64,000 nt of DNA from assembly GCA_949152475.1 (NCBI GenBank), contig OX424567.1, positions 29,475,402 to 29,539,401 on the forward strand, read 5' to 3'. The number at the start of each line of letters is the position of its first letter. Position 1 is the first letter of the stretch. Below, piece by piece: positions 18,228 to 51,400 of the stretch. This DNA is from Terebella lapidaria (Eukaryota; Annelida; Polychaeta; Terebellida; Terebellidae). The notes under the pieces are model-generated. The model made no database searches and was not told the DNA's origin. It saw only the letters and a program-made list of their open reading frames with translations. The translations under genes and the position numbers were made by a program.

Positions 18228-18245
18228 TGGTGCCGTGACCAGGAT
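18228..18245 (+). other. primer-binding site
   Basis: TGGTGCCGTGACCAGGAT begins one base after the 5' LTR. It starts TGG, complementary to a tRNA CCA end. I cannot assign the primer tRNA with confidence. Confidence 0.7.
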
Positions 18246-18340
18246 CAGTCCGACAGTGTTCCATCGCAGCCTACCGTCACAGTGTTGTAGCCTCCTTCGT
18301 CCCTGGGGATCGCTCGCTCCTCACGGACAACTCAAACAAA

Positions 18341-20569: not shown

Positions 20570-20718
20570 ATCCGGACGTGGTGGCGACCAACACTACGTC
20601 CGGGGATAGTTGTTCCGTGGCAAAAGATGCCGCCCCACCCGCTGATGAGCAGGACGAACCCCAAGTTGATATGACTTCTCCGGAAGTAGTCCTTGGGGAT
20701 CAGTCTAGCTCCTGGTGA
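20570..20718 (+). pseudogene. gag-pol junction, frame-displaced start of pol
   Basis: Between the gag stop (20567-20569) and the protease region the open frame is the one at -1 relative to gag. It is open from about 20263, so it overlaps gag by 300 nt, and it closes at 20718. The main pol frame beyond (from 20693) is back in the gag frame. This fits -1 frameshift expression of pol from gag followed by a one-base indel near 20693-20718, or a pol translated independently. The sequence alone cannot decide. Confidence 0.45.
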
Positions 20719-23066: not shown

Positions 23067-24414
23067 TAGTCGGGCATGTACGGGGGGTCCCTTTGCACCC
23101 CCCCCCCATGATCCTCCAAAACCAACTTTTTTCTCAAGGTTTTTTTAATACTAATAAACATTACATATGTCTCCGGTTGCGCATCCATTGCAAAAATGGT
23201 TTTCGGGCCATTTTTCAAAATGGCCGCCCCGCGAAATCTCGAATTTTGAGATTGCTTCACTTTAAGCTGCATAGGTCTACAAAATAAAATCTTTGTTAAC
23301 TTTTGCTGCTCATTGTAGGGGCCTTATACATTGTACATGAGAAAACAGTGGTTAAATAAACATTTATAATAGGAATATGTCCATATATCCAGGATGGCCG
23401 CCAAATTTAGATAATTTTTCACTAAAATGTCCATAACTTCGGACTGAGTCAACCTAGGATGTTCATTTTGGGGTCTATACCTAGGTTTTCATATACAGGG
23501 AATCCATTTAGACCAAAATAAATACAATCAAGCTATTCCTTTTGATGCATGCATCCAAGATGGCCGCCAAAATTAGATAATTTTTCACTAAAATGTCCAT
23601 AACTTCGGACTGAGTCAACCTAGGATGTTCATTTTGGGGTCTATATCTAGGTTTTCATATACAGGGAATCCATTCAGACCAAAATAAATACAATCAAGCT
23701 ATTCCTTTTGATGCATGTACACCTGCACACATGGTACACGCTACACATTCATTTAGATATCTCTCGAAAATAGCCCCCTTGACACCCCTATGGTCTCAAT
23801 TGTGGATCTTGCTTGGATATTTCTGATAGAGACTTTTACTGATTTGCAATCCCAATAAATCCTTAAACAAATAGAGCTTGATTTGATTAGTTTTGTTAAT
23901 TAACAGATATCCAAGATGCCTGCTAAACACACCCCGAAAATTCAAGTTCGTAACTAATTGTGCTATAAAGATGTGCGATACTTACTTTCAAGGGAATTTT
24001 GGTATGTAGATTCCATTTTTGGTGTTATTCTAGCTATATAATATCAATTTAAAATGATAACAGCATCTCATTGAGATGGAAAGCAAATAAAAACATATTG
24101 TTATTTGAATTTATTCATACACTTATGTATTACGCATAAAAAAAGCGAATAAAAACATATTGTTATTTGAATTTATTCATACACTTATGCATTACGCATT
24201 ACTCACCAACATGCTTGGGATACTTTTTACAAACAGAGAACAATAATGTAGAATATCTTCATTGGCTATCTTAACACATGAATATGATGGAACATGGTAC
24301 TAAGATTTTGGTTCTGCTATATTGGATGAATCGACATATTAGTTGATGATGTCTTCACCATTGCCCTGCATTCTCTTGCAGTACAACAACGTTGTCTTGA
24401 GCTGTCCGACATCA
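23067..24414 (+). repeat. foldback left arm
   Basis: Inverted repeat of 24567-25918. The inner boundary is GAGCTGTCCGACATCA. Confidence 0.9.
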
Positions 24415-24566
24415 ATTGCATTACAACTGTTCAGCCCCAGGAGAATGGCAACCCGTACACGAAGGTGTGTCTAGATCAATGAATGAGACTAGATCAATAA
24501 ATGAGACTATTGTGGCAAAAGTGATGTAGAATTTTCCAGAACTGAGATAGAGGATGTTGAGTGGTA

Positions 24567-25918
24567 TGATGTCGGACAGCTCAAGACAACGTTGTTGTAC
24601 TGCAAGAGAATGCAGGGCAATGGTGAAGACATCATCAGTTAATATGTCAATTCAGCCAATATAGCAGTACCAATATCATAGTACCATGTTCCATCATGTT
24701 CATGTGTTAAGATAGCCAATGAAGATATCCTACATTATTGTTCTCTGTTTGTGAGATAAAAAGTATCCCAAGCATGTTGGGGAGTAATGCGTGATGCATA
24801 AGTGTATGAATAAATTCAAATAACAATATGTTTTTATTTGCTTTTTTTATGCGTAATGCATAAGTGTATGAATAAATTCAAATAACAATATGTTTTTATT
24901 TGCTTTCCATCTCAATGAGATGCTGTTATCATTTTAAATTGATATTATATAGCTAGAATAACACCAAAAATGGAATCTACATACCAAAATTCCCTTGAAA
25001 GTAAGTATCACACATCTTTATAGCACAATTAGTTACGAACTTGAATTTTCGGGGTGTGTTTAGCAGGCATCTTGGATATCTGTTAATTAACAAAACTAAT
25101 CAAATCAAGCTCTATTTGTTTAAGGATTTATTGGGATTGCAAATCAGTAAAAGTCTCTATCAGAAATATCCAAGCAAGATCCACAATTGAGACCATAGGG
25201 GTGTCAAGGGGGCTATTTTCGAGAGATATCTAAATGAATGTGTAGCGTGTACCATGTGTGCAGGTGTACATGCATCAAAAGAAATAGCTTGATTGTATTT
25301 ATTTTGGTCTGAATGGATTCCCTGTATATGAAAACCTAGATATAGACCCCAAAATGAACATCCTAGGTTGACTCAGTCCGAAGTTATGGACATTTTAGTG
25401 AAAAATTATCTAATTTTGGCGGCCATCTTGGATGCATGCATCAAAAGGAATAGCTTGATTGTATTTATTTTGGTCTAAATGGATTCCCTGTATATGAAAA
25501 CCTAGGTATAGACCCCAAAATGAACATCCTAGGTTGACTCAGTCCGAAGTTATGGACATTTTAGTGAAAAATTATCTAAATTTGGCGGCCATCTTGGATA
25601 TATGGACATATTCCTATTATAAATGTTTATTTAACCACTGTTTTCTCATGTACAATGTATAAGGCCCTTACAATGAGCAGCAAAAGGTAACAAAGATTTT
25701 ATTTTGTAGACCTATGCAGCTTAAAGTGAAGCAATCTCAAAATTCGAGATTTCGCGGGGCGGCCATTTTGAAAAATGGCCCGAAAACCAATTTTTGCAAT
25801 GGATGCGCAACCGGAGACATATGTAATGTTTCTTAGTATTAAAAAACCTTGAGAAAAAAGTTGGTTTTGGAGGATCATGGGGGGGGGTGCAAAGGGACCC
25901 CCCGTACATGCCCGACTA
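24567..25918 (-). repeat. foldback right arm
   Basis: Inverted repeat of 23067-24414. It begins TGATGTCGGACAGCTC and ends GCATGTACGG-complement and CCCGACTA. Confidence 0.9.
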
Positions 25919-25921
25919 CTA

Positions 25922-27714
25922 GGGCTAATCTCCGCGCGCGGACCCGCCGCTATCGGCGAGGGCGTCCTGCATACGAAGCGGAGGTGCGGCTCAGCTCCAG
26001 CGAGTCCTCCTCGAGTCCGGCGGTGTACTCCTCGTGAGTACCCTCGTCCTCTGGAGAGTCTGAGTATGAGCGGTCCTTGCCCCCTGTGGTGATGGCCGCT
26101 GCGGCGCAGCCGGACGCGACGGATGAGGAGCCTAATTACTTGGGTGGCTACTCTCCGGCGCAGATAGCTGCGACGCAAAGAGCTGACAGAGCTCTGGCAC
26201 CGGTAATCACAGCCCTTGAGGCCGGCCAGAAGCCCTCGAAGGATGAGCGGAAGACCTACAGGGAGGAGACTTCGTCTCTAGTATCCCAGTGGGAAAGACT
26301 CTCCTTGAGGGATGGCCTCTTATACCGGCGCTATGAGCCACCGACCCCACTGCCTCCAATATGGCAGTTGGTGCTTCCGGCGGAGCTGCGGAAAGAAGTA
26401 CTCCACCAGTTGCATGACCTCCGGGTGACCGGTCACTTGGGAATCCGGAGGACCGTCCATAGGCTACAACAGCGCTTTCATTGGCCTGGTAGCAGCTTGG
26501 ACGTGCAACGGTGGTGCGCAGCCTGCCCTCGGTGTCAAGCTCGTAAGGGAGTTCCGACTCCTGGCCGCCACCCCTTAACCATGGTTAAGGCGGGCGCGCC
26601 GTTCGATCGGATAGCTTTGGATATACTGGATACCCACCGGGTCACCCCGCGCGGTTTCCGGTACATCCTGGTGATTTCCGACTATTTTACCAAGTATACC
26701 GACGCCTACCCACTGCGCCGCCAGACTGCGGACGAGGTAGCTCGGTTGTTGGTAAATAGATGAGTGGTGTACCATGGGGTACCTAAACAGGTACATTCGG
26801 ATCAGGGCACGCAATTTGAGAGCAACCTGTTCCGAAACCTAGCACAGATGCTAGGCAGTACCAAGGTGCGGACCACCCCCTACAGGCCCCAGTCTGATGG
26901 CCAGGTCGAACGCTTTAATCGATCAGTCCTCAACATGCTGGCGGCCTTTGTGAACGATCGTGCGAATGATTGGGATGACCACCTCCCGTATGTCTTAATG
27001 GCGTACAGGTCGTCGGTCCACTCTTCGACCGGAGTTACTCCGCATGCGATGTTGTACGGCCGGGAGCTAAATTTGCCCGTGGATATAATGTATCCAACTG
27101 CGGCAGAGACCGGCGCAGTACCCCAGTGCGGTCCGGAGTACGTGGAGTGGATTCGCCGCGCCCTGGCGAACGCCCATGATTTTGCGCGCGCGCGCCTGGA
27201 CAAGTCTGCCATCCGGCAGAAGCGAGGCTATGACGCCCATGCTAAGGGTAGGCCAGCTTTTGCGGAAGGCGACAAGGTGCGCTACTATTATCCGCCGCTT
27301 AAGCAAGGTAATAAATTTGCTAAGCCGTGGATAGGCCCGTTTACGGTACTGAAACAGGTGACAGATGTGGACTACCGGATCCGGAGGGATTCCGATCCGG
27401 ACAGGGTTCTGGTTGTCCATATCGATAATCTGAAGAAGTACGAGGGCCCGCTTGTCATGGATCCGCTTGTTCAAGATGCGGAGCCGGATGATGCTCCCGT
27501 ATGGGATCCGTCCGGTCAGCATCCGCGGACTCCGGACGAGCGTGTGCGCCGTATGGTGGGCCTCCTGGACCTCTCTGACCCGTCAGATGATGGACTGGGT
27601 GGCTATCAGCCAGATGACGGCGATCCGCAGGTACCCCCACTCCCTCCAGTACCTGCGGATGACGGGCGGCCACGCCGGAAACCACGTGCGCCAGCCCGGT
27701 ATGGGTGGGAATAA
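25922..27714 (+). pseudogene. pol: gypsy Pol C-terminal part: integrase, with in-frame stops
   Basis: The integrase follows the foldback insertion. A zinc-binding HHCC domain is seen: H in LHDLRVTGHLG, then CAACPRCQARKG. The catalytic core has D in FDRIALDILD, D in VHSDQGTQFES and E in SDGQVERFN, so the D,D,E triad is present. A GPF-type C-terminal domain (IGPFTVLKQV..VVHIDNLKKYEG) follows, and there is no chromodomain. Two in-frame TGA codons interrupt it: 26035-26037 before the HHCC domain and 26761-26763 between the two catalytic Asp. Together with the insertion, this copy cannot make a full integrase unless the stops are read through. Confidence 0.9.
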
Positions 27715-32040: not shown

Positions 32041-33090
32041 ATCATAGAGGAAGAGCTCTGCTCTTCCTAAAAACTAGAGCAAGGGCTAAAAAAAGATTAC
32101 CAGAGAAATGTTAAATCTCAAGTCAAAACTGTTTTCTTTTCCCCACCAAAATTGCTGCACTGATCTTCCGAGGTTATTGAAGGTCGAATTCAAAATCACC
32201 ACTGAAATCTCTTCATATGAATTTCCATTTCGACATGTTTGATAAAATAACGAAAATACAGATAGATCAATCTTTTCACCTATTTATATTTCAACTCAGA
32301 ATATTTTACTTACTTGGTTCCAAGTTGAAATTCAAAGTAAAAGTTGACCAAAACTGCATTTCAAGATTACGAAATTGGAGCCAGATCGAACTTCTCACCA
32401 TAAGTTATATTTCGACTCATAATACATGTATGTGCCAAACATGGTTTCAAGTTGACATTCAAAGTAAAAGTTAACCAAAACTGCATTTCAAGATGACAAA
32501 ATTGGAGCCAGATCGAACTTTTCGTCATAAGTTATATTTTAACTCATAATACCTGCCCAACTTGGTTTCAAGTTGAAATTCAAACTAAAAGTTGACCAAA
32601 ACTGCATTTCAAGATGACGAAATTGGAGCCAGATAGAACTTTTCGTCATAAGTTATATTTTAACTCACAATATGTGCCAAACTTGGTTTCGTGTTGAAAT
32701 TCAAGCTAAAAGTTTACCAAAACTGCATTTCAAGATGGAGAAATTGGAGCCAGATCGAACTTTTTATCATAAGTTATATTTTAACTCATAATATGTACCA
32801 AACTTGGTTTCAAGTTGAAATTCAAACTAAAAATTGATCAAAACTGCATTTCAAGATGACGATATTGGAGCCAGATCGAACTTTTCACCATGAGTTATAT
32901 TTCGACTCATAATATGTGTCAAACATGCTTTCAAGTTGAAATTCAAGGTAAAAGTTGACCAAAACTGCATTTCAAGATGTAGAAATTGGAGCCAGATCGA
33001 ATTTTTCACCAGAAGTTATATTTTAACTCATAATTTGTGCCAAACATGGTCTCAAGTTGAAATTCAAAGTAAAAGTTGATCAATGTTTTC
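32041..33090 (+). repeat. minisatellite array, unit about 120 bp
   Basis: About seven units carry AAACTGCATTTCAAGATGAC, ATTGGAGCCAGATCGAACTT and TGGTTTCAAGTTGAAATTCAA. Before the array (near 32048) is a hairpin, AGGAAGAGC-TCT-GCTCTTCCT. AGAGCAAGGGCTAAAAAAAG follows it, distantly like the ends of the hairpin-ended repeats elsewhere. Confidence 0.8.
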
Positions 33091-33104
33091 ACGAAAAGCT
33101 ATTG

Positions 33105-33945
33105 TGATCAATAATAGACTTAACTAGCAAGAAATAATGTTAACTTATTTGGTCACAGCCATAAAATCTCTACTGGACAAAGCCTTCACCTTGTTGAGCC
33201 CAATAATAAATATTTCTTGTCTTAACTATTTTCATTATGGTCAATAATAGACTTAACATGTAAAAATGATGTTAACTTATTTGGTTACACCCAGAAATTT
33301 CTACCGGACAAAATTTTAACCTTGTTGAGCTCAATAATAATTGTTTCTCATATTAACTATTTTTATCGAGGTCAATTATAGACTTAACTAGCAAAAAAAA
33401 TGTTAACTTATTGGGTTACAGACATAAAATGTCTACTGGACAGAATCTTTACCTTGTTGAGCCCAATAATAAATATTTCTTGTCTTAACTATTTTTATTG
33501 TGGTCAATAATAGACTTAACTAGTAAAAATAATGTTAACTTATTCAGTACACCCATGAAATCTGTACTGGACATACTTTCACCTTGTTGAGCTTAATAAT
33601 AAATATTTCTCCTCTTAACTATTTTTATTGTGGTCAATAATAGACTTAACTAGTGAAAATAATGTTAACTTATTCGGTTACACCAATGAAATTTGTACTG
33701 GACAAAACATTTACCTTGTTGAGGTTGATAATAAATATTTCTTGTCTTAACTATTTTTATTGTGGTCAATAATAGACTTAACTATTAAAAATAATATTAA
33801 CTTATTCAGTTACACCCATGAAATCTGTACTGGACAAAATCTTTACCTTGTTGAGCCTAATAATAAACGTTTCTCGTCTTAATTATTTTTATTGTGGACA
33901 ATAATAGACTTAACTAGTAAAACCAATGTTAACTTATTCAGTAAT
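33105..33945 (+). repeat. minisatellite array, unit about 132 bp
   Basis: Seven units carry AATAGACTTAACTAG, AATGTTAACTTATT, ACCTTGTTGAGCC.AATAATAA and TCTTAACTATTTTTATTG. Unit starts are near 33113, 33245, 33375, 33509, 33640, 33773 and 33904. It is related to 16860-17215. Confidence 0.85.
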
Positions 33946-34490
33946 ATTGTCCTGTTTTCACTGAAAACATCAGTTCTCCATTCTGGAACAAGATACCAGT
34001 GTCATTACCTTCCATTGTACAGGCTATTGGAATGATCTCACATGTCAAAATGGATATTTCCAGATTCTGTAATAAGTTAGGCTGTTAACATATTAATATT
34101 TATATGATCATTCTAAAAAACGATAGGTTTTGTGTGACAGCCCTTCCCAACAAAACTTCCAAATATTATCGAGATTCGTCAAAAATTGCCATCAGTAGAG
34201 CGTTCACAAACCATGTGTCTCAAACAGGCTGTTTTCAATGCAAAATGTGTCCCCAAACGACCAATTCAGTTGCCACGGCAACCAAAATCGATTGGTGTCA
34301 GGATCTTACCATAATATATGTGCCTGTGAAAAATAATGGTGATCGGGTGAGAATTGCGGCCTGTAGCGCGTTCACAAGAAAATCTCTGCGGACGCGGACA
34401 CGGACGACGAAGCCAAATCCATAGTATCCGCCAAACTTTGTTCGGGGGATACAATTATTTTTTATTTTCACACTTGAGTCTCAAATGAAC
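33946..34490. other. no recognised feature
   Basis: Unique-looking intergenic sequence without supported coding potential. It lies downstream of the RPL23 copy A 3' end. Confidence 0.4.
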
Positions 34491-34566
34491 GACTAACACA
34501 TTTTGGGTTTTTGATGATTTTTATTACATGTATACTTCAGCACAGTATGTTTGTTCGGACTGTGCG

Positions 34567-34649
34567 CTAATGTATCGAGCTGGCGTTGGAGGCGATTTTG
34601 GGCCACAAGTCGGCGCACTCCTTGGCTACAGGCCCATTGATGGCTGAAC
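34567..34649 (-). CDS. RPL23: RPL23 copy A terminal exon
   Basis: 83 nt. The acceptor is CTCTTTGACAG. It encodes [15 protein letters not shown] and then [11 protein letters not shown], followed by a stop. A minus-strand AATAAA polyadenylation signal lies about 45 nt downstream (near 34518-34525). Confidence 0.92.
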
Positions 34650-36098
34650 CTGTCAAAGAGATGAATACAAAACTGAAGTACATTTTCTGCAGGAAAAGAA
34701 TCATGCTTGAACATTGAATACATGGAACAAGCGTCCGAGGATATCAACTTGTTTTTCTTCATGTGGTTCATAGTTTATAGTTCAGTTTCCATGATCAGGT
34801 GGGGTTATGTTGATATCACAAGAATTCATAACGGCGAGTGTCCAGTTTGACCTGGACCATCACTTCAGGGAAACCTTTGAACTTGAACCCTCAGAAGATT
34901 TTGATTGATATTTTTTTCTGGCAAATTTTCATGATCAGGTGGGGTTATGTTGATATCACTAGGAATCATAACGGCGAGTGTCCAGTTTGACCTGGACCAT
35001 CACTTCATGGAAACTTGCCTTCTTGCCTATGGATCATAGATTCTTAGTGCAAGAATATATACTTGCTGCTGTTTTCGGCGATAGATAACTAAATATTTCA
35101 CATGATCAGTTTGAGATATGTTGATATCACAATAATTCATAGTGTTCAAAGTAAACCATCATTTCATGTGAAACTTCTCTGTCAAAACAAAGAACTGTAA
35201 CCAAAATATATATGTAGGGTACATAAATTTAACCACTGCGATGCTCAAGTTAATGATTTCATATTTTTAATACTTTTTTTTTCCCCAAAAAATTAGGATT
35301 CAATATCAGATTCACTCAAGTTTCAATACATATTCAAATATAACATCCTATAAAATATTCCATGATCAGGTGGGGTTATGTTGATATCACCAAGAATCAT
35401 AACGGCGAGTGTCCAGTTTGACCTGGACCATCACTTCATGGAATGTTCATATCTAAACTGACCAACCAGAATTTCAAGTTTGTCACTCTACAGTAACAAT
35501 TTGTACCAATCGGGAGCGGACACCGATGTATACAAACCAGTCAATACCTTTCATCTCCCCTTTTTGGTTGACTATCACACCAGCATTATCCTCGAAGTAT
35601 ATAAACAGCCCGTTCTTCCTTCGGATCGGTTTTCTTTGCCGAATTATCACTGCCGGTATAACTGGAATACAAAATAGAACATATGAATTCAAATCTTCAA
35701 CAAACATATCCTCATATGAGTAGCATTACTTTTAGTTCCATGATCAGGTGGGATTATGTTGATATCATGAGGTATCATAACGGCGAGTGTCCAGTTTGAC
35801 CTGGACCATCATTTCATGGAATAGAATTCAAACCCACGCATATGAATTGCAAAGATACTAATCATACTATCACAAGCACCTTTATCCTCTGACATTAAAA
35901 TTTCATCAAGTAGTTTTCCCATTTAATACTCTCTGTATTCATATTATAAACTGTGAAGTAAATACAAACCCTTTTTCCTCAGTTCTGGCTTTCCTTTCTT
36001 CACAGTTGCAACAATCATGTCGCCCGAGGCGGCCGCAGGTAATCTGTTGAGACGACCCTTGATACCTTGTACAGCGATCACGTACAGGTTCTTGGCAC
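34567..36098 (-). CDS. RPL23: ribosomal protein L23 (uL14), copy A, last three coding exons
   Basis: Minus-strand exons 36098-35970, 35661-35548 and 34649-34567 join in phase, with GT/AG introns, to a stop codon at 34567-34569. The product matches uL14 from the GAKN.Y segment to the end: [60 protein letters not shown], and [20 protein letters not shown]. uL14 is a core large-subunit ribosomal protein of about 140 residues; some 105 are encoded here. The N-terminal exon(s) were not found. No stop or frameshift is present, so the exons look functional. Introns carry snoRNA-like units. Confidence 0.9.
34788..34871 (-). ncRNA. box C/D snoRNA-like unit A1
   Basis: Minus strand: C box GTGATGG, internal hairpin GTCCAG-GTCAAA-CTGGAC, guide CACTCGCCGTTA (12 nt complementary to conserved LSU rRNA TAACGGCGAGTG), and D box CTGA followed by TCATGGA. 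The 5' stem side is TCCCTGA, a weaker match than in other units. It lies in the last intron of RPL23 copy A, on the host-gene strand. Confidence 0.72.
34928..35013 (-). ncRNA. box C/D snoRNA-like unit A2
   Basis: Same boxes, hairpin and rRNA guide as unit A1; C box GTGATGG and D box CTGA. The terminal stem is TTCCATGA with TCATGAAAA (one mismatch). It lies in the last intron of RPL23 copy A. Confidence 0.75.
35099..35170 (-). ncRNA. diverged box C/D snoRNA-like unit A3
   Basis: Minus strand: CACATGA stem, C box ATGATGG, D box CTGA, and TCATGTG closing the stem perfectly. It lacks both the internal hairpin and the CACTCGCCGTTA guide, and is shorter (72 nt). It is an orphan relative of the main units, in the last intron of RPL23 copy A. 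Confidence 0.55.
35357..35444 (-). ncRNA. box C/D snoRNA-like unit A4
   Basis: Full set of boxes and rRNA guide. The terminal stem ATTCCATGA/TCATGGAAT is perfect over 9 bp. It lies in the last intron of RPL23 copy A. Confidence 0.8.
35548..35661 (-). CDS. RPL23: RPL23 copy A exon (IPAV to GEMK)
   Basis: 114 nt. The acceptor is GTATTCCAG and the donor is GTATTG. It encodes [17 protein letters not shown] and then [20 protein letters not shown], a near-exact uL14 match. Confidence 0.93.
35736..35822 (-). ncRNA. box C/D snoRNA-like unit A5
   Basis: Full set: C box ATGATGG, hairpin, guide CACTCGCCGTTA and D box CTGA. The terminal stem TTCCATGA/TCATGGAA is complete. It lies in the intron between the first two RPL23 copy A exons seen here. 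Confidence 0.8.
35970..36098 (-). CDS. RPL23: RPL23 copy A exon (GAKN to ELRKK)
   Basis: 129 nt. The acceptor is CTTTCCTCAG and the donor is GTTTGT. It encodes [20 protein letters not shown] and continues to [10 protein letters not shown], with 42 complete codons and split codons at both ends. Confidence 0.9.
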
Positions 36099-36496
36099 CT
36101 GAGGAAAGGACACAACCAGGTACAGGTATTTAACTTTTCTATCAACCATAAACAACTAAGGTATAATCGCGCATATGAGGACACTAAAATACTCGAGCCT
36201 GTCCTTATATTCGAATAAAAGAACATGCCCTTATATTCGAGAAGGTTTACTGGCCAAATAATGTGAGGCTCACAACGCCAAATTTAATAGCCGCCAAAAT
36301 TAGTCTTGACAGTATGTGGTTTTGAAACCGCCAAAATAAATATCCACCAAATAGCGTGGGACTCAAATCTGCCAAATTTAATAGCCGCTGAAATTGGTAG
36401 TTTCACAGTACTCTTGTTATTGATGTGATCAGATATTTCCCATGAAAGCTTGAGCTTTGATATCCACTTCAAGAAGCACATGAATAAATTGTTTGC

Positions 36497-36548
36497 ATGC
36501 GAAACTATGACGAGTGTCCAGTTTGACCTGGACCATCTGTTCATTGAA
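36497..36548 (-). pseudogene. broken snoRNA-like unit A6
   Basis: Only the C-box half and the internal hairpin are kept (GTCCAGTTTGACCTGGACCA on the + strand). The guide is shortened and the D-box half is absent. It lies upstream of the RPL23 copy A exons. Confidence 0.6.
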
Positions 36549-36629
36549 ACTTTTCAATTGAATATGTCAAATCCAGAGCATTTATGAAACACATACTCAG
36601 TACTATATTCAAGAGTTTTCTTTAGCGAG

Positions 36630-36717
36630 TTTTCATGATCAGGTGGGGTTATGTTGATATCACTAGGAATCATAACGGCGAGTGTCCAGTTTGACCTGGA
36701 CCATCATTTCATGAAAA
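36630..36717 (-). ncRNA. box C/D snoRNA-like unit A7
   Basis: Full set with C box ATGATGG. The terminal stem TTTTCATGA/TCATGAAAA is perfectly paired although both sides differ from the CCATGA/TCATGG form of other units. This is a compensatory change. Confidence 0.8.
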
Positions 36718-36802
36718 ACTTTTATTCGTACATGTCAAATCAAGGGCACTCATGACACATGTACTAGATTTTTCACAAGTTTGAGAAGTTTTTTCTAGCA
36801 AG

Positions 36803-36890
36803 TTTCCATGATCAGGTGGGGTTACGTTGATATCACAAGGAATCATAACGGCGAGTGTCCAGTTTGACCTGGACCATCACTTCATGGAAA
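36803..36890 (-). ncRNA. box C/D snoRNA-like unit A8
   Basis: Full set. The stem TTTCCATGA/TCATGGAAA is perfect. It is upstream of the RPL23 copy A exons, in a possible first intron. Confidence 0.78.
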
Positions 36891-37019
36891 ACACCTACTA
36901 TACTATAGTATTACACTATTGGGAGAGGTTTCAATATCAGGAGCTGTAGAATATGGGAGACAACTGACCTTTTTCTTGTAAATCTTTTTATGACCTCCCT
37001 CACAAATGCTCAATAGGGG

Positions 37020-37947
37020 ATTATCGGGTCCAAAATTTTTTTCAAAGGGTGAAAATTTTTTTTTGTCTAGAAATGACCCAAAATGGATAGTAATGCAATT
37101 TGGGACCAAAAAAAATTTTTTTCGCCGACCCGTCAAAAATTCAAAATGGCCGCCACACGGAGACCGGCGATTCAAGGGCAACAAAACTTATAGACATCAT
37201 AAAGGTACATAAGGGTAATATTTTGAAACAATAATCTCAAAACTGATCAGACAGTTTTCGAGAAAAGACAGTCCAGGTGCAAATTTGAGCATTTCTCGAC
37301 CCAAGAATGGCTGTTTTGACCTTTCAAGGTCATCCAAGGTCAAATTCAAGGTCACCACACAAGTCGCCATATATGACTTTCCATTTGAAAGTGCCAATAT
37401 CTAAGCTCTATCTTCAAGCGTTCTATGAGTACAGTCCCGGCAGCTCTCATTATGAAGGAAAAAAGTGCCGAAAATTTTCTAAGTCCAAAATTTTTTTCAA
37501 AGGGTGAAAATTTTTTTTTGTCTAGAAATGACCCAAAATGGATAGTAACGCGATTTGGGACCAAAAAAATTTTTTTCGCCGACCCGTCAAAAATTCAAAA
37601 TGGCCGCCACACGAAGACCGGCGATTCAAGGGCAACAAAACTTATACACATCATAAAGGTACATAAGGGGAATCTTTTGAAACAAAAATCTCAAAACTGA
37701 TCAGACAGTTTTTGAGAAAATGGCCGCCAAAGTCCAAAATTGGCCATTTTTCGTCAAAAATGGCCGCCATTTTGAGAAGAATGTGAAAATCAAAAAACTA
37801 AAAAATAACCCCCTCTTGGAATATTTTTAGGCAACTTTGTGCAAAATTTCAGGAAAATCCGCCTGTAAACTTTAAAGATAAAAATGTGGACGGACGACGG
37901 ACGCAACGCGACGGCAATAGGTTATCGGACCATAGGTCCGGTAACCT
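37020..37947 (+). repeat. hairpin-ended repeat, 5'-truncated copy
   Basis: Two units of about 465 bp (GTCCAAAATTTTTTTCAAAG near 37028 and 37484) are followed by CAAAATGGCCGCC-type words. The (GGAC)n-rich stretch and the terminal hairpin TAGGTTATCGGACC-ATA-GGTCCGGTAACCTA end at 37947. The other end of the family is missing. Confidence 0.75.
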
Positions 37948-38350
37948 AATAACGTCTGTTTCGCTCTACGACGCACCGTTTCCGAGATATGCATGAGAGC
38001 CTCAAGGATGACTCAGCTAAAATTATTTCGAGCCCTAGGTCAAAGGTCGTTTGACGAATCGGCCTCAAAATCAATAGGCTTCTTCCCTGGTGATATATGA
38101 ACCTCCATGCAAAGTTCCACAGTCATTGCCATAACACTTTTTGAGTTATCGTGCGGAAACCAGAAACATTGATTTCATCCTGACAAAACCATAAAGGCAT
38201 TTCTGCTGAAATGCCTTAATTCCTATAATAAATGGCTTCCCCAAGTTTAGAGCTAGCAGTTAAGGATATGGAATTTTTGAAGGTGAATCTTTTTAATTCG
38301 ACCGAAAATCGTTAAAGGGTTCAATTCATAAATTTTCATTGAAAAATTGA
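37948..38350 (+). repeat. interspersed repeat related to 5450-5640 and 16318-16450
   Basis: ACGACGCACCGTTTCCGAGA and the following text resemble the area near 5520. AATAAATGGCTTCCCCAAGT at 38229 matches 16318. It separates the two RPL23 blocks. Confidence 0.5.
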
Positions 38351-38465
38351 AATTCATCTCTATTTTCACACTGTAGTCTCAAATGAACGACAAACACATA
38401 TTGGGTTTTTTGATGATTTTTATTACATGTATACTTCAGCACAGTGTGGTTGTTCGGCCTGTGCA

Positions 38466-38548
38466 CTAATGTATCGAGCTGGCGTTTGAGGCGATTTTGG
38501 GCCACAAGTCGGCACACTCCTTGGCTACAGGTCCATTGATGGCTGAAC
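38466..38548 (-). CDS. RPL23: RPL23 copy B terminal exon
   Basis: 83 nt ending in a stop. Downstream on the minus strand an AATAAA lies near 38417-38424, as in copy A. Confidence 0.92.
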
Positions 38549-39863
38549 CTGTCAAAGAGATGAACACAAAACTGAAGTACATTTTCTGCAGGAAAAGAAT
38601 CATGCTTGAACATTGAATACATGGAACAAGCGTCCGAGGATATCAACTTGTTTTTCTTCATGTGGTTCATAGTTTATAGTTCAGTTTCCATGATCAGGTG
38701 GGGTTATGTTGATATCACAAGAATTCATAACGGCGAGTGTCCAGTTTGACCTGGACCATCATTTCATGGAAACTTGCCTTCTTATCTATGGATCATAGAG
38801 TACTCTTAGTGCAAGAATATATAAATGCTGTTGTTTTTGGTGATAGATTACTAAATATTCCACATGATCAGTTTGAGAAATGTTGATATCACAATGATTC
38901 ATAGTGTTCAAAGTTAACCATCATTTCATGTGAAACTTCTCTGTCAAAACAAAGAACTGCATCTACAATACATGTATATGTAGAGTACATAAATTTAATC
39001 GCCACGCAGCTCAATTTAATGATTTCATATTTTTAATGATTTTTTTCCCCAGAAATTAGAATGTCAATATCAGATTCACTCAACTTTCAATAAATATCCA
39101 AATATAACATCTTATGATATTCCATGATCAGGTGGGGTTACGTTGATATCACAAGGATTCATAACGGCGAGTGTCCAGTTTGACCTGGACCATCACTTCA
39201 TGGAATGTTCATACCTTAACTGACCAACCAACCAGAATTTCAAGTTTGCCACTCTACAGTAACAATTTGAACCAATTGGGAGCCTACTGCGATGTATACA
39301 AACCAGTCAATACCTTTCATCTCCCCTTTTTGGTTGACTATCACACCAGCATTGTCCTCGAAGTATATAAACAGCCCGTTCTTCCTTCGGATTGGTTTTC
39401 TTTGCCGAATTATCACTGCCGGTATAACTGGAATACAAAGTAGAACATAAGTATTTAATTCTTCAACAAACATATCCTCATATGGGTAACATTATTTTAG
39501 TTCCATGATCAGGTGGGGTTATGTTGATATCATGAGGAATCATAACGGCGAGTGTCCAGTTTGACCTGGACCATCACTTCATGGAATAGAATTCGAACCC
39601 ACGCATATGAATTGCAAAGATACTAATCATACTATCACAAGCACCTTTAACCTATGACATTAAAATTTTATAAAGTAGTTTTCCCATTTAATACTCTCTG
39701 TATTCATATTATAAACTGTGAAGTGAATACAAACCCTTTTTCCTCAGTTCTGGCTTTCCTTTCTTCACAGTTGCAACAATCATGTCGCCTGAGGCTGCTG
39801 CAGGTAATCTGTTGAGACGACCCTTGATACCTTGTACAGCGATCACGTACAGGTTCTTGGCAC
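38466..39863 (-). CDS. RPL23: ribosomal protein L23 (uL14), copy B, last three coding exons
   Basis: Exons 39863-39735, 39427-39314 and 38548-38466 join in phase exactly as in copy A and encode the same uL14 residues through SSIH and stop (38466-38468). Synonymous differences exist (for example the terminal exon reads GGACCTGTAGCC against GGGCCTGTAGCC on the minus strand). The missing N-terminal exon(s) would lie at higher coordinates, towards or inside the gap at 43521-43720. Copy B is closer to that promoter region than copy A. Confidence 0.9.
38685..38772 (-). ncRNA. box C/D snoRNA-like unit B1
   Basis: Full set with stem TTTCCATGA/TCATGGAAA. Its left flank matches that of unit A1 and its right flank that of unit A2. 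It therefore corresponds to A1 and A2 merged, as expected from unequal recombination. Confidence 0.8.
38861..38932 (-). ncRNA. diverged box C/D snoRNA-like unit B2
   Basis: Counterpart of unit A3: CACATGA/TCATGTG stem, C box ATGATGG, D box CTGA. It has no LSU guide of the main type. Confidence 0.55.
39119..39206 (-). ncRNA. box C/D snoRNA-like unit B3
   Basis: Full set with stem ATTCCATGA/TCATGGAAT. It is the counterpart of unit A4, in the last RPL23 copy B intron. Confidence 0.8.
39314..39427 (-). CDS. RPL23: RPL23 copy B exon (IPAV to GEMK)
   Basis: 114 nt. It encodes the [13 protein letters not shown] and [17 protein letters not shown] segments and is intact. Confidence 0.93.
39501..39586 (-). 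ncRNA. box C/D snoRNA-like unit B4
   Basis: Full set with stem TTCCATGA/TCATGGAA. It is the counterpart of unit A5, between the first two RPL23 copy B exons seen here. Confidence 0.8.
39735..39863 (-). CDS. RPL23: RPL23 copy B exon (GAKN to ELRKK)
   Basis: 129 nt with the same splice sites and protein as copy A exon 35970-36098. Confidence 0.9.
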
Positions 39864-39923
39864 CTGAGGAAAGGACACAACCAGGTACAAGTATTGAACC
39901 TTTCAATCAACCATAAACAACTA

Positions 39924-40372
39924 AGGTATAATCGCGCATATAAGGACACTGTTATATTCGAGCCTGTCCTCATATTCGAACATAAGGACACGTCCCTATA
40001 TTTGAGGTTTACTTTTTTCGCGCCATAAAGCAATATTCGTTTATAAGGACACTCGTGTCCTTATATTCGAGACACTGGTTTTTGGCACTGTCGTTACCAG
40101 TGAAGCAATCACGTTGAAATGAGAATGGTACCGAATATAATCCAACAGGACAGCATTTTATAGCCTTGTCTAGGCTACTTGCACACGTAGGTTATTGTGG
40201 TTATAATTCAGTTTAGCTTACCATGTTCTTACATGCGGGTTATTGGGGGTGTCCTTATATTCGAATATATAAGAACATGTCTCTGTATTCGAGACACTTT
40301 GGTTTTTTGGCGAGAGCCCCAAAATGCAATATTCCGGATATGAGAACATTATGCGTGATTATACGATACATT
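39924..40372. mobile_element. possible MITE with imperfect terminal inverted repeats
   Basis: The left end TATAATCGCGCATATAAGGA is an imperfect inverted match of the right end (ATGAGAACATTATGCGTGATTATA region). Inside, TCCTTATATTCGA-like words recur in both orientations. The related block near 36165-36240 has a shortened form. Confidence 0.45.
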
Positions 40373-40514: not shown

Positions 40515-41848
40515 TTAGGCCAAGGGCCGAAGATAGGTTACCGGACAATGTTTAATATTTTAGATGTTAGCCAGGTCACTGGTTGAATTCAAGGTCAAGA
40601 GAATATTCAGCATATATAACATTAAGCATATATCATGTCCACAGTTGATTGCTAAGCTGTTAATTCAATAATCAGAGAGATATTAGCAACTTTGTGCTGT
40701 GGCCTTGAAAATGAAGGGGCAAAGGTCAAATTCAAGATCATCAAAATTTTCAATGTATATCATTTTCTATATCATGTCCACAATTGATTCCCAAGCCATA
40801 CAGTCAATAGAGGAGCTAGATATGAGCCAGTTTGTCCTTGGACCTTGAAAATGAGGTCAGAGGTCAAATTCAAGGTCACGAGAATATTCAGCATATATCA
40901 TTTCCTATATGTCCACAATTGATTCCTAAGCTGTAAAATCGATAATAAGTGAGATATTAGCCATTTTGTCCTGTGACCTTGAAAATGAGGTCAAAGGTCA
41001 AATTCAAGGTCATGACAATAATCTGCATATATCATTTCCTATATGTTCATAATTGATTGCTAAGCTGTAAAGTCGATAACAAGCGAGATATTAGCCATTT
41101 TGTCCTGTGACCTTGAAAATGAGTTCGAAGGTCAAATTCAAGGTCATCAGAATATTCAGCATATATCATTTCCTATATGTCCACAATTGATTCCTAAGCT
41201 GTAGAGTCGATAATAAGCGAGATATAAGCCATTTTGTGCTCTGACCTTGAAACTGAGGTCAGAGGTCAAATTCAAGGTCACGAGAATATTCAGCATATAT
41301 TATTTCCTATATGTCCACAATTGATTCCTAAGCTGTAGAGTCGATAATAAGCGAGATATAAGCCATTTTGTGCTCTGACCTTGAAACTGAGGTCAGAGGT
41401 CAAATTCAAGGTCACGAGAATATTCAGCATACATCATTTCCTATATGTCCACAATTGATTCCTAGTCTCTAATCTCAATATCAAGTGAGATATTAGGCAT
41501 AATGTGTCCCATTATAAAGCATGGGAGAATTTAACATGGGAAAGTCCCATTTGGGCCGAGTTTGGGCCAAAATGGCCCACTTCGAGCGATTCAAGCGCAA
41601 CGAAATTTATAGACATCATAGAAGTACATATGAGGAGTCTTATGTATCAAAAAGAAAAAAAGTTACTGAACAGATTTTGAGAAAATGGCCGCCAAAGTCC
41701 AAAATCAGGCATTTTTCGTCTAAAACGGCCGCCATTTTGAAGAAAAAGCGAAAATCAAAAAACTAAAAAATACCTCCTTCTTGAATTATTTTTAAGTATT
41801 TTTCTGCAAAATTTCAGAAAAATTCGCCCGTAAACAAAAAAGATAAAA
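40515..41848 (+). repeat. hairpin-ended repeat with internal array (copy F2)
   Basis: It starts TTAGGCCAAGGGCCGAAGAT followed by AGGTTACCGGACAA, then about six units of 133 bp containing GACCTTGAAAATGAGGTCA and AATTCAAGGTCA. It runs directly into the next element at 41849. It is homologous in reverse to 14810-16261. Confidence 0.75.
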
Positions 41849-43287
41849 TTAGCCCAAAGGCTAAGATAGGTTACCGGACAATTTTGGTTTGGCCATGGCA
41901 GCATTGGCAGGTAACAGACCTTGAGATTTACCAATCAAGGTTCGCAGTGTAAACATAGGACCTTGGGATTTACCAATCAAGGTCATCCGTATGAACTTCG
42001 ATGTAACCATTACATGTATGTGTGCGGCATTTGATATTCTATATGTTGGGTGGAATCGTTTAGGCCGCTCAGGTCAATTTACACATTCCAAGTCAGACAT
42101 TTGGCACTCAAGGTCATCTGACGTCAAGTTCAAGGTCATCATTAGTTGTGCCATATATGTCTTCCTATATGTTCATAATGCAAACAGGAGCTCTATCTGC
42201 AAGCATTTCATCTACAAGGGCAAATCTGGGCATTTTTTGACCCAAAAATGGCTGTTTTGACCTTTCAAGGTCATCCAAGGTCAAATTCAAGGTCACCACA
42301 CAAGTCGCCATATATGACTTCCGATTTGAAAGTGCCAGTTTTGTCCAAAGTCCAAAAATTTTTTCAAAGGGTGAAAATTTTTTTTTGCCTAGAAATGGCC
42401 CAAAATGGATAGTAATGTTATTTGGGCGAAAAAATTTTTTTTCGCCGACTCGTCAAAAATTCAAAATGGCCACCACACTGAGATCGGCGATTCAAGGGTA
42501 ACAAAACTTATACACGTCGCAGAGGTATATAAGAGGAATCTTTTTAAGCAAAAATCTCAAAACTGATCAGACAGTTTTTGAGAAAATACAGACCAGGTGC
42601 AAATTTGAGCGTTTTTCGACCCAAAAATGGCTGTTTTGACCTTTCAAGGTCATCCAAGGTCAAATTCAAGGTCACCACACAAGTCGCCATATATGACTTC
42701 CCATTTGAAAGTGCCAATTTCTAAGCTCTATCTTCAAGCGTTCTATGAGTACAGTCCGGACAGCTCCCATTATGAAGGGAAAAAGTGCCGAAAATTTTCC
42801 AAGTCCAAAATTTTTTTCAAAGGGTGAAAATTTTTTTTTGCACTAGAAATGGCCCAAAATGGATAGTAATGCGATCTGGGGCGAAAAAAATTTTTTTCGC
42901 CGACCCGCCAAAAATTCAAAATGGCCGCCACACGAAAACCGGCAGATTTAGGGCAACCAAACTTATACATATCACAGAGGTATATGAGGGGAATCTTTTG
43001 AAACCAAAAACTCAAAACTGATCAGACAGTTTTTGAGAAAATGGCCGTCAAAGTCCAAAATTGAGCGTTTTTCGACAAAAACGGCCGCCATTTTGAAAAA
43101 AATGCGAAAATCAAAAAACAAAAAAATACCTCCTTCTCAAAATATTTTTAGGCATTTTTGTGCAAAATTTCAGAAAGATTCGATCGTTAACTTTAAAGAT
43201 AAAAATGTTAACGCCGGACGGACGGACGGACGGACGACGGACGCAACGCCATGCCAATAGGTTATCGGACCAAAGGTCCGGTAACCT
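41849..43287 (+). repeat. hairpin-ended repeat E1
   Basis: One end is TTAGCC-CAAA-GGCTAA followed by GATAGGTTACCGGACAA. The other end is a near-perfect hairpin, TAGGTTATCGGACC-AAA-GGTCCGGTAACCTA, preceded by a GGAC microsatellite. The body holds two units of about 460 bp with TTTTTTCGCCGAC and CAAAATGGCC words, plus ACCTTTCAAGGTCATCCAAG. No coding capacity is recognised. Open frames seen in several copies simply follow the repeat. Confidence 0.8.
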
Positions 43288-43366
43288 AAAAATGTGGACG
43301 ACGACGACGACGACGGACGCAACGCCATGCCAATAGGTTATCGGACCATAGGTCCGGTAACCTAAA
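43288..43366 (+). repeat. duplicated terminal hairpin of E1
   Basis: A second copy of the GACGGACGCAACGCCATGCC stretch and the terminal hairpin directly follows E1. Confidence 0.75.
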
Positions 43367-43520
43367 AACTACTGTAAAACGACTGATATTGGCGAACGAT
43401 TTATCAGGCGGATTTGGCAGGCGGAGAAAATCGATTTATCAGGCAGAGAAAAAACGCCAAATTAAATCGTCCGCCAAATTACCTAGATATATGTTAAGAA
43501 ATGTGTCATTTTGAAACCAC

Positions 43521-43720
43521 NNNNNNNNNNNNNNNNNNNNNNNNNNNNNNNNNNNNNNNNNNNNNNNNNNNNNNNNNNNNNNNNNNNNNNNNNNNNNNNN
43601 NNNNNNNNNNNNNNNNNNNNNNNNNNNNNNNNNNNNNNNNNNNNNNNNNNNNNNNNNNNNNNNNNNNNNNNNNNNNNNNNNNNNNNNNNNNNNNNNNNNN
43701 NNNNNNNNNNNNNNNNNNNN
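43521..43720. other. assembly gap (200 N)
   Basis: 200 unknown bases. The gap lies between the RPL23 copy B exons (- strand) and the LASP exons (+ strand), where the first exons of both genes would be expected. Confidence 1.
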
Positions 43721-47877: not shown

Positions 47878-48329
47878 TTTTTCCGTTGTCAATCCATTAT
47901 GTTGTGGAATAATTTATGTGTTTCATGGGAGACACATTTGCATGTTGATGTAATCATAATCACAAATGGTATACCATTATGCTAAAATGTAAATCACTTG
48001 TATTCATGATATTGATCGAAGTGCCCTGCGTTACGTAGTATAGTAGTAGTATAGTTCATTGACATAAACAATCATACTTTACATACACCTACATGTGTAT
48101 AGTTTCCATCCAATGACCATCACAAATATTTTGTGGGCGAACTGTGTCAAGACATCTATACATTACAATGTCAGTAGTCGACTTTCCCCAGAAATATGGT
48201 TTGGTAAATGTCTCGCTAGCCAGGCTTTCATTGATTAAAAATACTAGCGAGATGTTTGTTTACAATGTTTTTCATGACAAAGGTATCTACTCCGAGATTC
48301 ACCATATATTCTGTTTTGTATGTTTTCAG

Positions 48330-48424
48330 GTATGGCACAAGGCATGCTTTCGATGTTGGGAATGCAACATGGCCTTAAATATGAAAAATTACAAAGGCTA
48401 CGACAAAAAACCATATTGCAATGC
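48330..48424 (+). CDS. LASP1: LASP exon: LIM domain, middle
   Basis: Acceptor TATGTTTTCAG, donor GTGAGT. It encodes [18 protein letters not shown] and then [14 protein letters not shown]. Zinc ligands visible are His, Cys and Cys in H-x4-C-x2-C ([11 protein letters not shown]) and the Cys of PYC. Confidence 0.92.
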
Positions 48425-51400
48425 GTGAGTATGATGAATGAAATTTATTTAGTTCATTGTGTTCAAATAATTACAGGTAATAAGTGTATTCATCTTTAGC
48501 AAGTGAAATATTGTCATCATCAAAAAACACTTGCTAAAAGAATACTAGTATTAAGAGAAATAATTTTACAAAACCATCCATGTCAGATGTTTTGTAACGT
48601 CGTCATTCTAAACATTGATTATATTCTATACCCTTGTTGCTATGGTAACAGGCATTACCCTACAACACGTTTCACCGCTGTGGCAGACACTCCGGAAATG
48701 TCCAGAATAGCCGAAAATACAAAAATGCAAAGTCAGGTACGTAAAATTTGTGTCACTTTATTCTTTATCAAATTATACAAAATGACGATATTTGCTTGAC
48801 TGCGTGGTAAGTTCAAAATTCTGTCTTACAAAATATTTATAAAAGAAAAGTTTTAAAAGAAAATTGGACACTTGTTACATGAAGCGTAAGCGGATCAGTG
48901 ATGAACTGGTCTGTTTACGATGTTCATAATAAATTGGTGCATCCATATGTATCATATTGCAGCAGCACAACAAAAATTCATTCATTATCGTTTAATGAAA
49001 ATGTTTTGCTAGGTGCTCAGTGTTTGCTTTCAGATCCAGTATCACGAAGACTTTGAGAAGTCTAAAGGAAAGTTTACTGTAGTCGATGATGACCCGGAAA
49101 CTCTGCGAATTCGGAAAAATACGCAAAACCAGAGTGCGGTACAGAGAACTATGTCTATTGCGAATGCCTCCACTAAATATTAAATATTGTGTTTGATTTG
49201 TCAGATCCGCGAATGTCCGCAATTCCCTCTATTTCACTCCCGGCCTTGCGTTTGTTTGTAAATGTTTGGATATTTGTGCATGCATTAATGCATGTTTTGT
49301 CCTGTGTCCAATGGTATTAATCTAATACGCTGCCATTTTGACAAATTTTAAACAACAATTTTCTGGCCACCTGAGATTTTTGTAAATTTTTTAGATTGTA
49401 CATGAACATTCATTTATAAATCCAATCGTAGTGTAAAAGTTCTTCATTCTTTGTAGCACATGAAAAATTGGAAATAAATTGAAAACCATGATTACAAAAT
49501 TCATCACTGCTCTATGATCACGGAAATATTGATGTCTGAAGACATAATGCCGTGGTTTCAATATAAATTTTCTGTAGACTTGAGAAATCTCGGCAATCAT
49601 TATGTGCAAGTTTATTGTACACTTCTATTGTTAAAATTATGTTTTACTCTGGGATAATGTAAGATTTGCAATTATCCACTCTCAAACTCTGCACATCCCA
49701 ATTTTACATGTTCTAGAAATATATTTCCTCATACAATTAATTTTGTTAATACACGATCACCATTTGCCATTCAGTATAACTTCAACAGCACATGACTGTA
49801 TATATACAGGCTGCAGGCACTGAACCAATACCCAATAGAAAGCATTTGCTCATGTGCACTGAAATTGCAGTGACTGTTTAAATCATTTTACAAACTGACG
49901 AACAACTTGAAATTGCGTGTACTAGTAAGCAAATATGACTAATGCGTGAGGAAGTAATGGACATTCTACATTTGACTTCTAAAATCGTCCGTGTGAGAAT
50001 TCTGTGTTCCCAGTTTGTTGTTGTTTACAACTGTGTGAAACCGCATGTAGGTCTATTGTACTGTATTGTAAATATGGTGCACATTTGAAATTTTTATTGC
50101 AAGATTGAATTAAATTAACTTATTTGGAAAGGTGTTATTATCCTTATAGATATGTAGTATATAATTTGAGTATACATGTAACAGTATCTATTGCAGTGGA
50201 GCATCTGTTGCTTTATGATTATGCATGAACTTGATTGAAGGAAAATTAGGTGCAGCTACATTTCCTTTTCAGGTATCGTATCACGATGACTTTGAGAAAA
50301 GTCGGGGCAAATATTCTTTTGTAGCGGATGATTTGGAGCTGGCAAGGCAGCGGCAACTACAAAATGATATTAGTATGGTAAAAATGTAACCAAATGCATG
50401 TTCTTTCCAGGGTTTTTTTTTGCATACAGTTGCAGTGATTTTTGACAGTTGCGGGTTCCAGTTCTTTGCAAAATTTTTCAAAATAAATATGTACGACTGC
50501 ATTTTGCAAGAGAGAGAGAAGTTAACCAATGTTGATAATTTTGATATTTGATTCAGTTGATATAATTTTGTTCATTCCGTGCCTTTGGCTCATACATGTT
50601 TGTTTGGTATTGGATTGCAAAACATCTCATAAAAAAAAATTATTGTTTTATCTTGAATGCATTTTGAAACAGCCAATTGCAGCATATACCATGTATCTTG
50701 ACACAAAGCTTTCACAGAACAAACCAACATGCATGTGAATTTTTGAAACTCAAAACAGATGTTTTTAAAAATTCATGTATTCCTGGGAATCTAACAAATT
50801 ATTCAATGTCATGTCGATTGCTTTTGAAGTTAAGCTTCTAGTTTAACAGTGTGTAATTGCGATGATACGATGTGTTGTACCTACTGAATGTTTCAGATGT
50901 AGCTGAAAGTTTTTATACCTGAACCTGAAATATGTTGTGATTTTATTATAATACTTTTGTTGTTAAAATACAAAATTATTCAATACAATTTATTCAAAGT
51001 TATGTCATTGTTTTACCCAACAGGTGAAATACCATGAAGATTTTGAAAAGAACATCAAGGGTTCAAAGATACAGGTAGGCGTTTTGTTCTGGTATGTAAA
51101 ATAACTAAATTTATGTATGTATACTAACAAGCATAGTAGGATTTCATAAAATACGATTAAACTATTGTTTTATTTTCAAATCTGACCAAATTTCGTTTAA
51201 CAAGCATTTTATGAATGAACAATTTCCTCGAAATATTTATTTTATTGACATAAATCTAGGAATCTACCTGTCAGGAGTCAAACCCAATATTAACCCTTGT
51301 AATCCCGATCACGTTGACTATTAACCCTCGCCGCTCCAGGTTGCGGACGACCCAGAGACCCTGAGAATCAAAGCCAGTACCAATGTCATCAGTGGTGTCG

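Follow-up and report, generated by a model that had tools for sequence, protein, structure and literature searches.

A 64,000-nucleotide (nt) stretch of the genome of the annelid Terebella lapidaria (assembly GCA_949152475.1, contig OX424567.1, forward-strand positions 29,475,402 to 29,539,401; hereafter the window) carries two sets of 3′ exons of the ribosomal protein gene RPL23 on its minus strand, accompanied by a cluster of short repeated units that, by sequence criteria, are box C/D small nucleolar RNA (snoRNA) genes. Eleven intact units were found at the locus, nine of one kind (type 1) and two of a shorter kind (type 2), together with one decayed unit.

The RPL23 locus and its units

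The RPL23 exons from the residues GAKNLY to the C-terminus are present twice, as copy B (38466..39863; exons at approximately 39863-39735, 39427-39314 and 38548-38466, with GT-AG introns read by eye) and as copy A (34567..36098; exons at approximately 36098-35970, 35661-35548 and 34649-34567), whose protein is identical to that of copy B over the compared stretches. In a Pfam scan of five of the six exon pieces, all five matched PF00238 (Ribosomal_L14, L14p/L23e), four of them above the cutoff, while the last exon of copy A scored 23.1 bits against a cutoff of 23.6; one exon piece compared with PDB sequences returned chains of ribosomal protein L23/uL14. Across the 761.6-Mb assembly we recovered six RPL23 matches, three per exon set, and no others were found. 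The 5′ exons, encoding the first ~30 residues, are missing from the window, from the best matches listed for 40 kb upstream and 10 kb downstream, and from the genome-wide search; they probably fell into the assembly gap of 200 N at 43521..43720, which is the only N run of the window and lies 3.7 kb upstream of copy B. Copy A is preceded by no such gap and lacks separate 5′ exons, and could therefore be a partial copy or serve as an alternative 3′ end.

All of the units lie on the minus strand. The last intron of copy A holds type-1 units at 34784..34871 (unit 34788, with hybrid flanks and one stem mismatch), 34924..35012 (unit 34928, with one stem mismatch and an extended flanking stem) and 35355..35444, as well as a type-2 unit at 35099..35171 (core 35103-35166), and the preceding intron holds a type-1 unit at 35733..35821 (unit 35736). 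The last intron of copy B contains type-1 units at 38683..38771 and 39117..39206 and the second type-2 unit at 38861..38933 (core 38865-38928), with a further type-1 unit at 39498..39586 (unit 39501) in the preceding intron. Two more type-1 units, 36630 (36628..36716, in which a two-sided stem change replaces C-G with U-A) and 36803 (36801..36889), lie between the two exon sets. The decayed unit, at approximately 36511..36550, has kept the hairpin and the first half of the guide (CACTCG), but the first two letters of its C box are altered and the remaining guide and 3′ part are unalignable. Thus, 9 of the 11 intact units sit between RPL23 exons, in introns and on the sense strand of the host, 36630 and 36803 being the two exceptions. 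The next exon begins 70 nt after unit 35736 and 69 nt after unit 39501 (2 nt more with alternative exon starts), close to the optimal spacing for processing of intronic C/D snoRNAs, and the remaining units lie 130 to 701 nt from the next exon.

The same set of boxes recurs in all 11 units: a C box, RTGATGG, near the 5′ end, a D box, CTGA, near the 3′ end, and candidate internal D′ (ATGA) and C′ (TGATAT) boxes, both of which are off consensus. Every type-1 unit has RTGATGG, a GTCCAG/CTGGAC hairpin, the guide, ATGA, TGATAT and CTGATCA, and the alignment of the nine contains 74 invariant columns that include the hairpin and the D′ guide in full. The guide 12-mer CACTCGCCGTTA has exactly nine matches in the window, each at a type-1 unit on the minus strand; allowing up to two mismatches adds three matches outside the type-1 units, and the resulting 12 were reached in none of 100 shuffled sequences (mean 2.3). 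Type-2 units match type 1 in their stem and in the C, C′ and D boxes, are 12 nt shorter, and carry a different D′ guide, CTTTGAACACT. As boxes and stem are common to the two types and the guide differs, the family includes a change of guide.

A first-pass annotation of this DNA had described nine near-identical units on the RPL23 strand, in or beside its introns, each with these C and D boxes, a D′-like ATGA and a terminal stem closing both ends. The number, strand, positions and boxes of the type-1 units agree with that description, as does the stem apart from one mismatch each in 34788 and 34928; the intron placement applies to 9 of the 11 units. The inventory was incomplete, having overlooked the type-2 units and the decayed unit as well as the fact that the RPL23 3′ exons are duplicated in tandem.

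Terminal stem, guides and predicted targets

We scanned both strands of the whole window for a C box and CTGA closed by a terminal stem of at least 6 base pairs (bp). This returned nine matches, all within the cluster on the minus strand and comprising the two type-2 units and seven of type 1, while the reversed and the complemented window each gave no match. The scan passed over 34788 and 34928, which have one unpaired stem cell each (alignment columns 10 and 8). The stem itself is 9 bp long, with 96.0% of cells paired over all 11 units (97.4% with the hairpin included), compared with 24-42% in slid controls. Three of its nine pairs show two-sided changes (C-G/A-U/U-A, U-A/C-G and U-A/A-U), and the covariation score, the number of paired cells and the number of cells changed on both sides were reached by none of 500 shuffles. 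The 11 units pair better with their own flanks than with swapped ones (permutation P = 0.00015), and shuffling weakens the predicted fold of all nine type-1 units (z from −2.1 to −3.8). Within type-1 units, the guide end and D′ together read GTTATG, for which the D guide supplies a possible pairing partner (CATAAC, CGTAAC or CATAAT); these variants preserve the pairing through G-U, and predicted folds raise the prospect of a possible internal lock.

The guides were compared with 2697 nt of ribosomal RNA (rRNA) from the same genome, comprising 18S positions 1-1390, 5.8S, the 28S 5′ end and ~1 kb towards its 3′ side; the ribosomal DNA (rDNA) pieces found were incomplete, so that the comparison covers roughly a third of 28S, and 18S short of its 3′ end. 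The type-1 D′ guide forms 11 bp with 28S AACGGCGAGTG, all Watson-Crick and starting from the base adjoining D′. The type-2 D′ guide likewise forms 11 Watson-Crick pairs, with 18S AGTGTTCAAAG, starting from the base adjoining ATGA. The 18S segment is present in all six 18S loci fetched, TAACGGCGAGTG is present in one 28S 5′ end of the species’ own rDNA, and CAGTAACGGCGAGTGAAG is present in a 5.8S-28S piece on contig C12. Under the strict pairing rule, shuffled guides did as well in 0 of 2000 trials for type 1 and in 0 and 6 of 2000 for the two type-2 guides, and a separate run against 1738 nt of rRNA gave 0 of 3000 for the shuffled type-1 guide letters.

Applying the rule that the methylated nucleotide lies opposite the fifth position from D′ (D′+5), the expected target of type 1 is the second G of AACGG in 28S, which would be G91 in human numbering, and the type-2 guide points to the second U of AGUGU in 18S, which would be U822. 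The first-pass annotation had proposed both a complementarity to conserved 28S sequence and a predicted site at a G in AACGG; the geometry points to such a site, and the complementarity holds against the species’ own 28S beside the D′-like box, with a length of 11 bp in place of the 12 nt given there.

The rDNA of this assembly is fragmentary (loci L019, L018, L032 and L033), with 28S pieces matching the model only at positions 24-103 or from 2390 on, perhaps as a result of retroelement insertions or contig breaks. A 20-base 28S pattern had no match in viral contigs.

Duplication history and competing explanations

The cluster has grown along with its host. Blocks 34463-36251 and 38361-40013, each comprising the RPL23 3′ exons with their introns, are tandem duplicates that are 82-97% alike, and at exon sites copies A and B differ at 8 of 342 positions, none of which alters the encoded amino acids. 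The order of units is conserved between the two exon sets, the extra unit of copy A reflects a 140-nt insertion (34826-34965) that is absent from copy B and left hybrid flanks, and 36630 and 36803 are tandem copies of one another. All copies fall within one 4.8-kb stretch in one orientation. Taken together, the single stretch, single orientation, kept order, insertion and tandem pair fit cis-duplication, and the units have spread by local duplication and not as a dispersed repeat. Cis-duplication has been described as a main route by which snoRNAs expand, and intronic snoRNAs duplicated in tandem are well documented (PMC2653536).

Between the duplicated halves, and with gaps excluded, units differ at 11 of 339 sites compared with 77 of 958 in the other non-exon sequence (P = 0.0023, Fisher test). 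The eight type-1 differences between halves lie in the R of the C box, the D′-C′ spacer and the D guide. A similar imbalance separates 36630 from 36803, which differ at 5 of 88 sites within the units and at 13 of 73 in their flanks (P = 0.022). The two-sided stem changes, the slower divergence than that of the intron and the ~70-nt splice distance support real intronic snoRNA genes. We consider it very probable that the units are genuine box C/D snoRNA genes carried in RPL23 introns, with the type-1 D′ guide directed at 28S and the type-2 D′ guide at 18S, and they are probably functional guides.

A number of observations weigh against this reading. The C box ends in G where the consensus RUGAUGA ends in A, and D′ is ATGA instead of CTGA. 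Rfam returned no match in the window at gathering score. At E values up to 10 it gave 12, none of which reached its cutoff; they are confined to the type-2 units, and one is antisense to them. The number of stem pairs with two-sided changes was reached by 56 of 500 shuffles and the number of stem pair types by 186 of 500, and because the copies are related, the stem changes are not independent events. The advantage of own over swapped flanks falls to P = 0.054 for the outer flank alone, the type-2 fold z-scores are weak (−1.1 and −0.6), and the pairing of GTTATG with the D guide, used in 7 of the 9 predicted type-1 folds, would compete with the target. The D-box guides have no convincing target in the 2697 nt of rRNA, with shuffled guides as good in 12 to 78 of 100 trials. 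Under a lax rule allowing one mismatch, G-U pairs and an offset of 0-2, shuffled D′ guides did as well in 2 of 100 trials for type 1 and in 1 and 6 of 100 for type 2, from which it follows that the guide match is strong by its position and perfection and not by length alone. Several units per intron, and units 270-701 nt from the splice site, are unlike the usual metazoan layout. Lastly, unit conservation could stem in part from recent duplication or gene conversion.

It may be that only one or a few units are functional and the others are passive by-products of duplication that have not yet decayed, an explanation we rate only slightly short of an even chance. The units correspond pairwise between the duplicated halves, 36630 and 36803 arose in tandem, one decayed copy exists, and only 35736 and 39501 lie ~70 nt before a splice site, all of which favour this explanation. 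Set against this, the units have diverged more slowly than their flanks in both comparisons above, and the guide and hairpin are invariant in all nine type-1 units.

If the units are functional snoRNA genes, they would be released together with the RPL23 introns, the C/D core proteins would bind the C/D kink-turn closed by the terminal stem, and trimming would leave type-1 RNAs of ~85 nt and type-2 RNAs of ~70 nt. The type-1 D′ guide on 28S AACGGCGAGTG would then direct fibrillarin to the second G of AACGG, and the type-2 guide on 18S AGTGTTCAAAG would point to the second U of AGUGU. The family itself would have grown through duplications of the host locus, both local and segmental, with the D′ guide changing in one lineage. 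Expression, processing, protein binding and methylation are all inferred here from sequence. We tentatively propose, at less than even confidence, that one family, amplified in the only RPL23 found, sets two lineage-specific 2′-O-methyl marks, 28S G91 in a highly conserved segment close to the 5′ end and, through the retargeted sister, 18S U822. If true, RPL23 and its copy number would be linked to modification of rRNA at positions that the 2′-O-methylation (Nm) maps compared do not list.

In the Nm lists compared, Arabidopsis 25S sites start U44, U48, U144, G399 with none near 90 (PMC8053127, Table 1), the lowest planarian 28S site is Um181 (PMC11649923), and the lowest predicted chicken 28S site among those listed is A413 (PMC2653536). 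The lack of a site near 28S position 90 in these maps also suits another explanation, namely that the units are real C/D snoRNAs whose rRNA pairing leads to no methylation, whether they act as chaperones for folding of 28S domain I or 18S or pair silently with endogenous rRNA. The imperfect D′ box fits this explanation too, and snoRNAs have been reported that pair with rRNA and modify artificial substrates yet not endogenous rRNA (PMC8522698). However, the 11 Watson-Crick pairs abut D′ and fit the D′+5 geometry exactly, and the maps compared all come from other organisms; we rate methylation-free pairing as clearly below an even chance.

Less probable is an assembly artefact, in which the exon sets would be two alleles or a false duplication and the true copy number about half. 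The 8.0% non-coding divergence between the exon sets and the gap 3.7 kb upstream of copy B would allow for this, whereas no N lies between the sets, ~2.1 kb (36252-38360) between them falls outside the duplicated alignment, and copy A has one extra unit through the 140-nt insertion. Even if the duplication were false, the snoRNA reading would stand with fewer copies.

A dispersed repeat or mobile element that merely resembles a snoRNA, which the many near-identical copies, some with unrelated flanks, might suggest and which the first-pass annotation had named as the finding that would overturn its reading, is rejected as highly improbable, given that copies are confined to 4.8 kb on one strand and that searches of the 761.6-Mb assembly, whose counts are lower bounds, returned this locus only, with nine type-1 places, two type-2 places and one type-2 cross-match to a type-1 unit.

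Relation to known snoRNAs and other features of the window

No known Rfam family could be assigned as the identity of the units, as there was no match at cutoff. The sub-threshold matches are to C/D families, snoZ102_R77, SNORD58, SNORD102, SNORD2 and snosnR54 among them, and reflect likeness at the level of boxes and stem over type-2 units, with 18-28 bits against gathering scores of 37-50 and E values of 0.49-7.8; type-1 units are without a match. Known intronic C/D snoRNAs of ribosomal protein genes offer the closest likeness, sharing the boxes, the terminal stem and an rRNA antisense element beside D or D′. Here, the host is RPL23 (uL14) and not RPL23A, with nine copies plus two retargeted sisters and several units per intron. 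Human RPL23 introns host H/ACA RNAs, and at least five papers name SNORA21 together with RPL23 and a host gene. The kind of system, the host and the route of growth are ordinary.

The cis-duplicated snoRNA paralogs of chicken and their gas5-like hotspot likewise expanded by tandem duplication within a gene, and in some relatives a guide was lost or altered (PMC2653536). The T. lapidaria family differs from the chicken paralogs in having, within one family, two D′ guides that match different rRNA subunits. Among the matches listed, literature titles and the beginnings of abstracts held no description of the cluster, and the string AACGGCGAGT was not found among the best 15 of 6,156 literature matches.

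The locus adds a well-supported C/D snoRNA family that lies beyond the reach of Rfam models and provides a clear case of guide change between paralogs. The most interesting part is its predicted targets, two testable candidate methylation sites where rRNA is highly conserved. Its many copies within a ribosomal protein gene further offer a natural case for asking why some snoRNAs have been amplified.

Elsewhere in the window, large open frames on the plus strand at 18239-27714 have zinc-knuckle-like, reverse-transcriptase-like and integrase-like parts and resemble, by eye, a Gypsy-like long terminal repeat retrotransposon. An open frame at 48117-48428, also on the plus strand, shows LIM-domain-like cysteine spacing by eye. 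Tandem arrays with spacings of 121 nt, ~131 nt and 134 nt occupy 32308-33943 and 40814-41505, and repeat copies with the inverted motif GGTTATCGGACC...GGTCCGGTAACC lie at 37003-37955 and 41586-43371, one of them between the RPL23 exon sets.

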